The notes below the pieces were generated by a model, which had not been told where the DNA came from, made no database searches, and saw only the letters and a list, made by a program, of their open reading frames with translations. 64,000 bases of DNA, from contig NZ_FOJA01000001.1 in NCBI RefSeq assembly GCF_900110535.1, positions 1,488,001 to 1,552,000 of the forward strand. Reading direction: 5' to 3'. The position numbers and the translations under genes are program-made. The DNA is from Halobacterium jilantaiense. Its GTDB lineage: Archaea > Halobacteriota > Halobacteria > Halobacteriales > Halobacteriaceae. Positions 59,257 through 63,115 of the stretch are shown here, in pieces. Positions within the stretch are counted from its first letter, which is position 1, and each line of letters begins with the position of its first letter.

Positions 59257-59276
59257 GTAGTGGACTCGCTGGGATT
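59257..59276. repeat. Left att-like direct repeat (tRNA-Ala 3' end copy)
   Basis: 20 bases, starting GTAGTGGACTCGCTGG and ending GATT, identical to 63040-63059. It covers the tRNA nucleotides from the discriminator into the T-arm. A 7-bp hairpin (TTCCCGT/ACGGGAA, 59275-59299) follows directly. Confidence 0.85.
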
Positions 59277-59482
59277 CCCGTGAGCGGAGCGAACGGGAAG
59301 CCTGCGAGGGAGCGAGACGAACGAAGTGAGTCGTTCATAGGGAACCCCCCTAGAGGGCCTATGGGGGCGGGAATAAGATGGCGTGTCGGAAATAACGGAT
59401 ATCAGTACAGGGGATACATTACGCGAAAGACGTTGATGGAGGAACCCGATAGGACACGACTTTTGGGTATCTCTTGGTTAAA

Positions 59483-61363
59483 TTAGGACATCTGAGCGGA
59501 TTCCTCATTCTGAACTACCTTCTCGACACTCTCCACGAGTGATTCAGCTTGTTGGCGATTCAAGCCATGGATACGGGCTGCCTCAACAATATCTTCACCA
59601 AGACTTGCTGGGCATCCTGCACAGTGAAGCCCGTACTCGGAGAGCAAGTCTTCTACGGAGTGCTGTTCGAGGAGGTCAGCCATCGCGAAACCTGAAAGGT
59701 CGGTTTCAATATCATAGCCTGCAGCGAGGTTCATTGTATCGTCTCGGGCTTCCCATGGTGCATGGAGGAGACGCCAAAACGAGAGGTTGTATTCGTCGGG
59801 CTGGCGTTCAAAGTCTGCCCAGTACCCAATATGGATTTCATCCCACGAGAGATCGTTTCGGATGACATGCTGTACGAGTTCGCCGTCAACCGCCATTCTT
59901 ACATGAGTGTCCGCGTCGGCTGACGCGAATCCGCTCGGCTCCTCCATTGGAGTGTACGTGATACTACCGTTTTGGAATCGGATAAGAGAGTGCAGGTCTC
60001 TTTCGTCTGCGCGAAGAGTGAGTGAGAGAGCGTGGTTACCAACCTCAGTCGCTAACGAGGAACCACCAAGAGCCTCAAAGTACGTTGAAAGTTCCTCGTG
60101 CGAAAGGTCGAATTCCTCGTCAACAATAGGCGTGTGTGACTTATACAGGGACTGGATTTTAGCTTCCTTGACGTCGTCGTCATAGAGTTTGTCATGGTCA
60201 TTTCGGCGAGACGGCATACCGGAGTTTCCGTCCCATGACTCGCCGGGCAGTAAGTCCAGGACCTCGACAGGGGAATCCGAGAGATGTTCCACAACGTCGC
60301 TTGGTTCATTTTGCCTAATCATCGAGCGATACTCATCGAACTCGGGTTGCAGCAACCCGAAGAATTTGGCGAAGGGGAGCAGATACTCAGGGTCGTACAT
60401 CTCGACTACCTGCTGGCAATGCTTGAGTGCGCCCGCATTCCGGTCATCCATTATCTCGTATTTCTCCTCACCTGAGAGATGGTTCCACGTAAGTGGGTAT
60501 CCGGAGGCACCGAATGCGAAGGAGGTTGCCACGAGGTCGACGGATGGAATTGCGTCTTTTACGTCCCAGTTTAAACCAGCGTCGTTGAAATTGAGAATAC
60601 GGAAGCCTCCACAGTTCACCGCGAGGATGCTGTCATTCCACGTTGATTGGGATTCAAAACAGGCTGCTTCAATCCCCTCTGCGAGTGGGTACGCCTCCCC
60701 AGTTGGTAGGCTGTATGTATTCTCAAACCCGAGTTCACGTAATCTCGACGAAAGCCGACGGTAGTTGAGTTCGGGGACATATATCGGTGTGTTGTCTGGA
60801 AAGTGAGAGAGGGTTCGCTTGTTTAGATGGTCAGAATGCTCGTGCGTAATCCAGATTGCGTCCGTTTCGGCGGCGACCTCGTCTATATCACAGGTTGGTT
60901 GTGGGTATTGGGCCCACCCACCGAGGAATGCGGGGCCATCCAGCCAAGGGTCAGTAAGGAGTGTAAACCCATCATAGTCGATTCGTAGCGTCGCGTGGGA
61001 GAGCAGTGAAACGGTGGGCGCTGCTCCCTCGTGGTCGTCCACCGTAAACTCGGTTGTTGGGTCGATATGGGGGATATCAGCGTAGAGCGTCCCTGCGTCG
61101 GTCGTTACTGGATACTGTTCGAGGGATTCGCCTGGAACCGTCGTTGATTCGCCTGATTCTGAGTCGAATTCCCAGCCATGGTCTGGACAGCGCAGACACG
61201 ATTCAGATTTCACATCAACGGTGCCACCTTGGTGAGGACAGATCGCTTCAAAAACGACTGGTGTGCCGTCGGGCGTTTGGCTTAGGATAAATGGTTTCTC
61301 GTCAAGGTAAACCCTGCGTGGAAGTTCTTCAAGTAGATTTTCATCTCCGATTCGGATGCCCAT
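59483..61363 (-). CDS. Rieske / metallo-beta-lactamase protein, CMP-Neu5Ac hydroxylase-like, with C-terminal CxxC domain
   Basis: A 626-residue protein. (1) N-terminal Rieske [2Fe-2S] domain with CPH (C42, H44) and CPDH (C59, H62). (2) Metallo-beta-lactamase (UlaG-like) fold with HEHSDH at 174-179 and a late metal-binding Asp/His. (3) A middle/C-terminal region (SITYTPMEEPSGFASADADTHVRM) like CMP-N-acetylneuraminate monooxygenase. (4) C-terminal DUF1858-like domain with CAGC (C581, C584). This Rieske + MBL order is that of CMAH, which hydroxylates CMP-sialic acid; the extra CxxC domain is not part of the animal enzyme. Substrate is not known. AT-rich codon use indicates transfer. Confidence 0.82.
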   Translation of the reverse strand: MGIRIGDENLLEELPRRVYLDEKPFILSQTPDGTPVVFEAICPHQGGTVDVKSESCLRCPDHGWEFDSESGESTTVPGESLEQYPVTTDAGTLYADIPHIDPTTEFTVDDHEGAAPTVSLLSHATLRIDYDGFTLLTDPWLDGPAFLGGWAQYPQPTCDIDEVAAETDAIWITHEHSDHLNKRTLSHFPDNTPIYVPELNYRRLSSRLRELGFENTYSLPTGEAYPLAEGIEAACFESQSTWNDSILAVNCGGFRILNFNDAGLNWDVKDAIPSVDLVATSFAFGASGYPLTWNHLSGEEKYEIMDDRNAGALKHCQQVVEMYDPEYLLPFAKFFGLLQPEFDEYRSMIRQNEPSDVVEHLSDSPVEVLDLLPGESWDGNSGMPSRRNDHDKLYDDDVKEAKIQSLYKSHTPIVDEEFDLSHEELSTYFEALGGSSLATEVGNHALSLTLRADERDLHSLIRFQNGSITYTPMEEPSGFASADADTHVRMAVDGELVQHVIRNDLSWDEIHIGYWADFERQPDEYNLSFWRLLHAPWEARDDTMNLAAGYDIETDLSGFAMADLLEQHSVEDLLSEYGLHCAGCPASLGEDIVEAARIHGLNRQQAESLVESVEKVVQNEESAQMS

Positions 61364-61383
61364 AGAGAATGGCAGAAGGAGAT

Positions 61384-61426
61384 AACTATAATACCTTTGT
61401 TATCAGGTCTGCGAAAATACCTGATA
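61384..61426 (-). promoter_or_regulatory. Promoter and 8-bp palindromic operator of the Rieske-MBL gene
   Basis: GTATTATAGTTATC (61384-61396 region) is a TATA element about 21-33 bases above the ATG at 61363. Just upstream, TATCAGGT (61401-61408) and ACCTGATA (61419-61426) form a perfect 8-bp inverted repeat with a 10-base spacer, suited to a dimeric repressor or activator. Confidence 0.6.
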
Positions 61427-61431
61427 CCCTC

Positions 61432-61466
61432 TCAAACCGGAGAGCCTGGCGGTTCCTGCTCGAGAG
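61432..61466. repeat. Imperfect 35-base direct repeat, copy A
   Basis: Begins TCAAACC and contains AGAGCCTGG, TCCTGCT, GAGAG. 29 of 35 bases match the copy at 61817-61851. Confidence 0.55.
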
Positions 61467-61488
61467 GTCGCTATGCTACCTCACCCTC

Positions 61489-61500
61489 ATAATGAAATAA
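61489..61500 (+). promoter_or_regulatory. TATA element of the small membrane protein gene
   Basis: CATAATGAAATA, 22-33 bases above the ATG at 61522. Confidence 0.55.
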
Positions 61501-61521
61501 CTCGGTAGCCACAGTTACTCT

Positions 61522-61737
61522 ATGCTGAAGGCACTGGTTGAGGCTGCGTCCCGAGGAAAACTCCTTGCAGTCCAGATTATCCTTATCGGTGCCCTCACTG
61601 TTAGGATTATGCTCTCCCTCGCTGGGAAACCAGAACAGGCCGTTTCTATCATCGTCCCCGTGTTCATCACTGCGGGTCTTCTCTTCGTCATCAAGCGTGA
61701 GTTAGGTGTTTTCGGGCTCCCGCTTAGTTTCGAGTAG
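61522..61737 (+). CDS. Small two-helix membrane protein of the island
   Basis: A 71-residue protein, MLKALVEAASRGKLLAVQIILIGALTVRIMLSLAG, then AVSIIVPVFITAGLLFVIK. A well-placed TATA element and consistent codon use support it. It is flanked by the imperfect 35-base repeats. No known family. Confidence 0.65.
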   Translation: MLKALVEAASRGKLLAVQIILIGALTVRIMLSLAGKPEQAVSIIVPVFITAGLLFVIKRELGVFGLPLSFE

Positions 61738-61816
61738 ACCTGACAACCGTTTTTCGGCGCAATACGGACAGAGGCGGTTTCTTTACTTCTACGATACACA
61801 CTACTGCATCGCTACC

Positions 61817-61851
61817 TCAAACGGCAGAGCCTGCTGGCTCCTGCTGGAGAG
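61817..61851. repeat. Imperfect 35-base direct repeat, copy B
   Basis: Partner of 61432-61466; the two flank the membrane protein gene. Confidence 0.55.
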
Positions 61852-61868
61852 AATGGTTACTGCTCTGC

Positions 61869-62369
61869 TCAGTCTGCAGAATGCATCAGCATCTCACTCA
61901 ACATCGATTCCGTTCTCTGGTTCCCGTCGAGATGGTCGAACACGTCTTCGAGAGAGACGAAGTCAATAGTTTCAGGCACTGAATCGGGGCGGCTGTCGTT
62001 AGGCGCAAACAGGTACAGATGGTCAGCACGGTCACAGTACTTATTCAGCCTCTCAACCCGGTCTTCTGCGTTGGAAGTACTACCTCCAGTCATTTCGGCA
62101 ATAAGTGCTGGACCGTGGTTGGGGCCAACGTGACCAATAACGTCTACGTCCTTCTGTTCGCCCCCGAGAGTCGAAGTCCGGCGGAACGACGGGAACATTA
62201 ACCGGAGGTACTCTGCACAGACCTCGACCTGAGTGGGCGTCAAACTGGAAGCAACGTATGGGATGGGTTCACCTCGATACGCAGCCTCGACAATCTCTTC
62301 GTCAATCTGGTTCCAGTCACAAGCCGACCAATGTGGCGGGTGAAGGTCTGTGTCGAGCAGAGGCGGTAC
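61869..62369 (-). pseudogene. 3' part of a frameshifted gene: possible restriction-endonuclease-like fold
   Basis: In this frame the residues run VPPLLDTDLHPPHWSACDW, then IDEEIVEAAYRGEPIPYVA, TPTQVEVCAEYLRLMFPSF, KDVDVIGHVGPNHGPALIAEMTGG, and end at LMHSAD. Within it, a TTG at 62243 could start a shorter product of 124 residues overlapping the stop of the other frame. The DVDVIG...ALIAEMT pattern recalls the D...ExK core of nuclease folds with Thr in place of Lys; this is only a pattern resemblance. The coding signal runs upstream to about 62369, where it passes into the other frame. Confidence 0.6.
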
Positions 62370-62776
62370 ATCAGTTGGGAGACCTCGACAGTTGTCTCTT
62401 CATCGAATTTGACGCCTTTGAATATCCACTTGTACTCATCTGGGTCGAGGTCGACTGACCCGTACGGTTCTACCTTTATAGGTTCTTGTAGCGCCGAAGC
62501 GGTCGCTGGAATGATGCAGACACTCTCTGCCTTACGGGTTGTAATTCGACTGAGTGGGTTGTAGAAGGTAACTGCTGTCTGGCCATTTTCGACTATCTCG
62601 CTTAGTTTTCTAATTTCTCGTTGGGCCTTGGTACGCTTCTGGTTGTATTTGTCGGGGTTGAGTGACGAGATATTGTCCCAATGAAGCATCCCGTATCCGC
62701 GGTCGATAGCCTGTTCGTTGTAGTGCTTTCTGGAGACAGGGCCGCTCGCGTGGTTAATCCAAGCCGGCTTACCCAT
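62240..62776 (-). pseudogene. 5' part of the frameshifted gene
   Basis: MGKPAWINHASGPVSRKHYN, then IDRGYGMLHWDNISSLNPDKYNQKRTKAQREIRKL, VTFYNPLSRITTRKAESVCIIPATA and IFKGVKFDEETTVEVSQL. After that (about 62370) the frame loses protein-like character and ends at 62240, while good coding continues in the -1 frame. The start is supported by a TTTTATTGG TATA element about 25-33 bases upstream. Family unknown; the intact product would have been about 300 residues. Confidence 0.6.
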
Positions 62777-62800
62777 ACTTTTCCCGATAAAACAAACCCA

Positions 62801-62810
62801 ATAAAAGTAT
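62801..62810 (-). promoter_or_regulatory. TATA element of the frameshifted gene
   Basis: ATACTTTTATTGG on the minus strand, 25-34 bases above the ATG at 62776. Confidence 0.5.
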
Positions 62811-63039
62811 CGTAGATGTGGCATTTTGTTTTCGTTCCTGTGGCCGGTGACAGAACACTCAACATCGTGCCCGGTGGAGGTCACTATGGAGAAACGCCAG
62901 GGGCCGGAGCCAAACGACGATGCATATTGAAATCGTAACGTCGGACCTTGCTGCTAACCGTCTCGAAATGGCGATAGCCAGCATAAGAAGTCGACAGCGA
63001 AACGCTACGCTGTCAGGTCATTACGGTGAAGGAGGGTTC

Positions 63040-63059
63040 GTAGTGGACTCGCTGGGATT
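63040..63059. repeat. Right att-like direct repeat, inside tRNA-Ala
   Basis: Identical 20-mer to 59257-59276. It comprises the 3' acceptor/T-arm of the tRNA gene plus four flanking bases. Confidence 0.85.
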
Positions 63060-63115
63060 TGAACCCAGGGCCTCTTCCTTGCGAAGGAAGCGATCTACCC
63101 CTGATCTACGAGCCC
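63044..63115 (-). tRNA. tRNA-Ala (anticodon CGC)
   Basis: A 72-base cloverleaf: acceptor GGGCUCG paired with CGAGUCC including the G3-U70 wobble that identifies alanine tRNAs, D-arm GAUC/GAUC, anticodon stem CUUCC/GGAAG with loop UUCGCAA (anticodon CGC), and T-loop GGUUCAAAUCC. Discriminator A. CCA is not encoded, as usual in Archaea. No intron. Confidence 0.95.

Follow-up and report, generated by a model that had tools for sequence, protein, structure and literature searches.

What a protein that joins a Rieske iron-sulfur domain to a metallo-beta-lactamase (MBL) fold, in the manner of CMP-sialic acid hydroxylase (CMAH), might do in a halophilic archaeon is the question raised by a gene at 59483-61363 on the minus strand of the window, the 64,000-nucleotide stretch of Halobacterium jilantaiense DNA analysed here. 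Its reading frame starts with ATG and runs for 626 amino acids with zero internal stops. The N-terminal Rieske [2Fe-2S] domain (residues 12-85; 61109-61330, minus strand) scored 43.0 bits against Pfam Rieske (cut-off 20.3), and it is followed by an MBL-fold catalytic domain (residues ~118-340; 60344-61012, minus strand) recognised by Pfam Lactamase_B_2 at residues 135-255 (32.6 bits, cut-off 27) and Lactamase_B_3 (29.8 bits, cut-off 24), by solved relatives and in the structure model. The residues singled out by the initial annotation, C42/H44 and C59/H62 of the Rieske motif and HEHSDH at residues 174-179 (60827-60844, minus strand), are exact, and C42, H44, C59, H62 and H174-E-H176-S-D178-H179 do not vary among the 21 full-length members of the family. 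The MBL domain also contains H123, D138, D244, D261 and a GASG at residues 285-288, with H123, D244 and D261 conserved in the family alignment as further likely metal ligands. Alignment delimited a third segment, a CMAH-type C-terminal region (residues ~420-545; 59729-60106, minus strand) carrying WDEIHIGYW...R.P..Y...FW at residues 507-530, in which I512, G513, R520, P522, Y525 and W530 are invariant throughout. Two trivial accounts were rejected, a chance motif by the E-values and the conservation, and a pseudogene by the full frame and the retention of every ligand.

A scan of contigs with the single window protein as query gave no match, and relatives were obtained with an alignment-based scan, the alignment including one presumed CMAH sequence. 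This returned 20 loci, namely Halobellus rufus, Halovenus rubra and 18 bacterial loci distributed over Myxococcota, Nitrospirota, Pseudomonadota, Bacteroidota, Campylobacterota, Cyanobacteriota and Fidelibacterota. The Halobellus rufus orthologue is full length and 56% identical to the window protein, and a search of haloarchaeal genomes added another in genome G344 (55% identity over residues 2-620), while the Halovenus rubra copy is truncated, with neither the Rieske nor the metal-binding regions. A profile search of 393 genomes of the phylum found no further full-length archaeal copy, in a sample that did not report the Halobellus, Halovenus or G344 copies either. Phage records gave no match, and plasmid records yielded only partial or Rieske-less relatives. 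When the four haloarchaeal proteins were compared with the 18 bacterial Rieske-MBL proteins by hhalign, the two profiles matched collinearly over 499 columns (probability 100, E 2.2e-66), which, together with the presence of all three regions, bears out the CMAH architecture originally proposed. Given that both profiles were built only from database sequences, this kinship is independent of the presumed CMAH. That sequence, which we take to be CMAH and treat as a lead, is collinear with the window protein at 25% identity (a one-sequence search giving E 6e-27) and has nearly all family-invariant residues, including those of the C-terminal region.

In a tree made by a quick method with a midpoint root and long branches, the haloarchaeal proteins, four in number, group as a single clade (SH-aLRT 100) that is sister to bacterial and animal CMAH (97), the animal row being the presumed CMAH sequence; given this method, root and branch length, the depth of the haloarchaeal branch is provisional. 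The presumed CMAH groups with the Myxococcota and Nitrospira members, as expected for a real CMAH if the bacterial genes are its relatives. Since the haloarchaeal clade lies beside, not inside, the bacterial and animal CMAH clade, we class the window protein as a CMAH-family relative rather than as CMAH proper; its standing as a remote, full-length archaeal member of the family is well supported by these comparisons. It shares with CMAH the N-terminal Rieske domain, the MBL domain with HxHSDH and a collinear C-terminal region ending WDE..IG....R.PD.Y...FW, but differs in its ~25% identity, its separate clade, its added CxGC domain and its archaeal host, and its activity is a prediction. Moreover, 12 positions (including S73, F284, K333 and Y514) have one fixed state in the three full-length haloarchaeal proteins and another in nearly all remaining members. 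The long branch and these clade-specific switches mean that the pocket may be altered and the substrate may differ. The clade offers a deep third branch for considering the origin of CMAH.

The initial annotation had suggested an oxygen- or electron-transfer enzyme, with a placement among plain MBL hydrolases or a loss of the metal residues as the outcomes that would speak against its reading. The tree, which holds no dedicated UlaG or NAPE-PLD hydrolase rows, places Rieske-less haloarchaeal MBL proteins outside the CMAH-like clade, and the metal residues are invariant in the alignment. Against solved structures, the family profile matched the non-heme diiron monooxygenase 8a90 best (E 2e-14), then CmlA (1e-10) and NAPE-PLD (3e-8). 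The predicted structure has a pLDDT of 82.8, mostly 80-97 in the MBL domain, and a Foldseek search with it returned NAPE-PLD and CmlA at the top. CmlA and 8a90, the nearest solved relatives by family profile, resemble the window protein in their MBL catalytic domain and its HA and HxHxDH blocks, but they have no Rieske domain, act on other substrates (a carrier-bound amino acid for CmlA) and align over only ~155 residues. Because diiron monooxygenases head the profile matches and the Rieske cluster is invariant, O2 activation is favoured over hydrolysis, and a redox rather than hydrolytic MBL enzyme is probable. That the protein is instead a hydrolase, for example a nucleotide-sugar deacylase with a structural or regulatory Rieske domain, draws on hydrolysis being the usual chemistry of MBL-fold enzymes and on NAPE-PLD and UlaG-type hydrolases being among the best fold matches; with Rieske ligands invariant in all full-length members and monooxygenases first in the profile search, we regard it as very improbable. 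A plain MBL hydrolase of the UlaG/PRK00685 or NAPE-PLD kind was rejected, given that PRK00685 scored 21.9 bits against a family cut-off of 144, that the diiron monooxygenases outscore NAPE-PLD and that the Rieske-less cousins fall outside the CMAH-like clade in that tree.

Those cousins, haloarchaeal MBL proteins of 460-480 amino acids (e.g. Halolamina WP_079232310.1), have the MBL core and a related C-terminal region, and some lie near polysaccharide genes, but they are only ~24% identical to the window protein and have neither the Rieske nor the CxGC domain. They are widespread (L007:5995-7338 and loci L023-L048).

CMAH, the animal enzyme that converts the sialic acid Neu5Ac to Neu5Gc, is regarded as an oxygenase that relies on NADH, cytochrome b5 reductase and cytochrome b5, and no structure of it had been reported as of 2016 (PMC4819959). 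CMAH-like genes have been described in algae and in bacteria including Helicobacter (PMC8227644, PMC6288428), and a Helicobacter gene is among the family matches (L068). Activity is described as confirmed for none of the bacterial proteins (PMC6724515), and Neu5Gc is regarded as an animal signature not made by prokaryotes (PMC7845648, PMC6524697). Bacterial CMAH-like genes are thus already known; in the literature consulted we found no mention of archaeal ones, and a 2018 distribution survey may list archaea. Within that literature, the earlier suggestion that CMP-Neu5Ac hydroxylation is not described in this lineage stands, no report of such an archaeal enzyme having been found.

The genomic context points to the nature of the substrate. 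NeuB is present in 4/4 haloarchaeal carriers of the family gene compared with 55/292 sampled genomes of the class (chance 0.0013, kinship ignored). It lies within ~10 kb of the family gene in G344, Halobellus rufus, L054, L062 and L069, five neighbourhoods where 0.23 were expected (P about 2e-6, a rough estimate with kinship left out of account). The G344 gene is separated by ~8 kb from NeuB-NeuA-NeuC, a flippase and a glycosyltransferase being encoded in the interval, and NeuC there is over its NCBIfam cut-off. No LegC-like aminotransferase was found in the whole G344 genome at E<=1e-30, so the pathway fits Neu5Ac. The Halobellus rufus gene lies ~7 kb from a NeuB that is part of a NeuC-NeuA-NeuB run. 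Comparable clusters occur in bacteria: at L054:4411-9674 (Myxococcota) and L069:2376-9563 a CMAH-like gene is near NeuB, NeuC and NeuA, marking both as candidate N-glycolyl-sialic-acid clusters, with L054 inside the clade of animal CMAH and L069 outside it; at L062 the family member belongs to a cluster of legionaminic type that includes PtmA-like genes. The link to a nucleotide sugar of surface glycans that had been proposed is supported and, by gene context, narrowed to CMP-nonulosonate (NeuB/NeuC/NeuA) pathways, with the S-layer and archaellin glycans named in the initial annotation as conjectural destinations. Prokaryotic relatives linked in the genome to CMP-sialic acid genes are a further likeness to CMAH. 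With close relatives beside sialic-acid-making genes, certain archaea and bacteria may be sources of the hydroxylated sialic acids that microbes are held not to produce, and the clusters name organisms and operons in which microbial N-glycolyl nonulosonate synthesis can be tested.

The window genome differs in its arrangement. Among window ORFs around the island described below no sugar cluster was recognised, and the single NeuB locus of the genome (C1, about 306-320 kb) is 1.2 Mb from the gene. It contains LegB/PseB-like, LegC-like, NeuD, NeuC, CMP-sugar synthetase, PtmA-like, GlmS-like and sugar N-formyltransferase genes, with NeuB, NeuC and NeuD over their cut-offs, and its GC content (about 52-57% versus 68.6%) is low like that of the CMAH-family gene. 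The set resembles the one that Halorubrum sp. PV6 uses for legionaminic acid (PMC6137143) in NeuB/NeuC/NeuA, LegB/LegC-like, NeuD, formyltransferase and GlmS genes; the words CMAH, hydroxyl and glycolyl are absent from that paper. Given the N-formyltransferase, the C5 N-acyl group of this sugar may be formyl rather than acetyl. The cluster also includes a PhyH-type dioxygenase gene (L017:12973-13677, minus strand), another possible sugar hydroxylase. Proteins of 462 and 468 amino acids, alike by eye and without a Pfam match, are encoded near NeuB in each of two genomes (L017:3342-4730 and L052:14423-15829) and are candidates for an unknown glycan gene.

The reading we consider probable is that the window protein is a predicted O2-dependent monooxygenase of the CMAH family that hydroxylates the N-acyl group of a CMP-nonulosonate. 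A cytosolic carrier would supply electrons to the Rieske cluster, which would hand them to an iron site in the MBL domain, where the N-acyl group (N-acetyl to N-glycolyl) of a CMP-activated nonulosonic acid would be hydroxylated before transfer of the sugar onto a surface glycan. The domains, conserved ligands, family membership, gene context and mobility are observed; the presence of iron rather than zinc in the MBL site, the hydroxylation and the substrate are what we infer. In G344 and Halobellus rufus the substrate would most likely be CMP-Neu5Ac and the product CMP-Neu5Gc, judging from the NeuC-NeuA-NeuB genes in the cluster. In the window species a CMP-legionaminic acid derivative appears more likely, since its only NeuB cluster is of the legionaminic type. 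Counting against the reading as a whole are the 1.2 Mb between gene and NeuB cluster and the location of the gene on a separate mobile island. Also weighing against it are the long branch and residue switches of the haloarchaeal clade, the provisional standing of the CMAH reference sequence, the lack of confirmed activity for any bacterial CMAH-like protein, the truncation of the Halovenus rubra copy, the failure to recognise a dedicated electron donor in the island and the possible N-formyl group of the window species' sugar. We consider it unlikely that the protein is a Rieske-MBL oxygenase acting on a different nucleotide sugar or an amide, the NeuB link reflecting a general clustering of surface-glycan genes. 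The separate haloarchaeal clade with its own residue switches would fit such an enzyme, as would the distance of the window gene from any sugar cluster and the Rieske-less cousins that adjoin polysaccharide genes, in whose displayed surroundings NeuB is not annotated. However, NeuB occurs in every haloarchaeal carrier, both full-length orthologues are near NeuC-NeuA-NeuB, and NeuC/NeuA/NeuB adjoin some bacterial members.

The initial annotation described a DUF1858-like CAGC domain at the C-terminal end of the window protein, and this domain is real though its scores are below the cut-offs: residues ~561-611 (59531-59683, minus strand) gave 23.6 bits with Pfam DUF1858 (cut-off 32.2) and 37.9 bits with NCBIfam TIGR03980, the 'hybrid cluster protein-associated redox disulfide domain' (cut-off 44.95, E 1.3e-9), and the solved relative 2k53 was matched at E 6e-6. 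CAGC itself (residues 581-584; 59612-59623) is kept as CAGC or CSGC at the expected place in 4/4 haloarchaeal members, and within the family the CxGC domain is restricted to their clade. It resembles TIGR03980/DUF1858 (2k53) in its ~50 C-terminal residues with C-x-G-C-P followed by helices, but that domain is named after hybrid-cluster proteins and is here fused to a CMAH-type enzyme at a score under the curated cut-off. The domain could serve as a thiol/disulfide relay or switch controlling electron entry, a guess concerning a poorly modelled, low-confidence part of the predicted structure. No dedicated electron donor was recognised in the island, and the fused domain provides a handle on the electron route to the MBL site. 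A broader proposal, that Neu5Gc is synthesised de novo by a CMAH-type enzyme in certain haloarchaea (G344, Halobellus rufus) and in bacteria, with an archaeal branch that has evolved a built-in dithiol redox domain and acts in the window species on legionaminic acid, is possible but in our view rather doubtful. Among the bacterial members, 7/18 (L056, L057, L058, L060, L064, L065 and L066) likewise carry CxxC or CxxxC in a short C-terminal tail, which may be chance or a theme common with the haloarchaeal domain.

The archaeal island in which the gene had been placed was confirmed as a 3.8-kb integrated element at 59257-63059 with a GC content of 52.4% versus 68.6%. It is bounded by perfect 20-nt att repeats, a distal copy GTAGTGGACTCGCTGGGATT at 59257-59276 and one at 63040-63059 (20/20 identical) that spans the 3' end of the integration target, a tRNA-Ala(CGC) identified by ARAGORN at 63043-63115 (minus strand). 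In G245, a sister species of the same genus, the site is empty and the two flanks share precisely these 20 nt, which makes recombination at the tRNA site the most likely route of entry for the island. None of the 12 other genomes of the genus is among the matches listed for the island interior (59334-63022). Besides the CMAH-family gene, it carries two small overlapping ORFs of 124 and 214 amino acids (61869-62884, minus strand) without a Pfam match, which may be what is left of a single element gene, perhaps frameshifted. No integrase was recognised by Pfam among the tested island ORFs, which argues for an element that is a remnant or was moved passively. Such a lone gene with two unidentifiable ORFs in a tRNA island of 1/13 genomes of the genus could be recently acquired and without a role in the strain, the intact cargo of a decaying mobile island, and the truncated copy in Halovenus rubra is in keeping with this. 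By contrast, the frame is full-length with all conserved ligands present, and the host possesses a nonulosonate pathway, a minority trait in its genus (NeuB in 2/10 sampled genomes); we judge a roleless gene quite unlikely.

Several related arrangements were encountered. The truncated Halovenus rubra copy adjoins a PseH-like gene and a DUF4910-type gene, the latter named by eye. A Nocardia sp. PE-7 plasmid encodes a permuted relative with the MBL domain first and the Rieske domain at the C-terminus (L008:6091-7644), and a Natrinema gelatinilyticum plasmid encodes a stand-alone Rieske protein of 100 amino acids that is 37% identical to the window Rieske domain (L009:5989-6291). Finally, two marine viral contigs of IMG/VR (L084:2553-3773 and L086:4989-6209) encode a protein of 406 amino acids that has the MBL and C-terminal regions of CMAH but no Rieske domain, adjoining apparent lysis and DNA-methylase genes that were named by eye.
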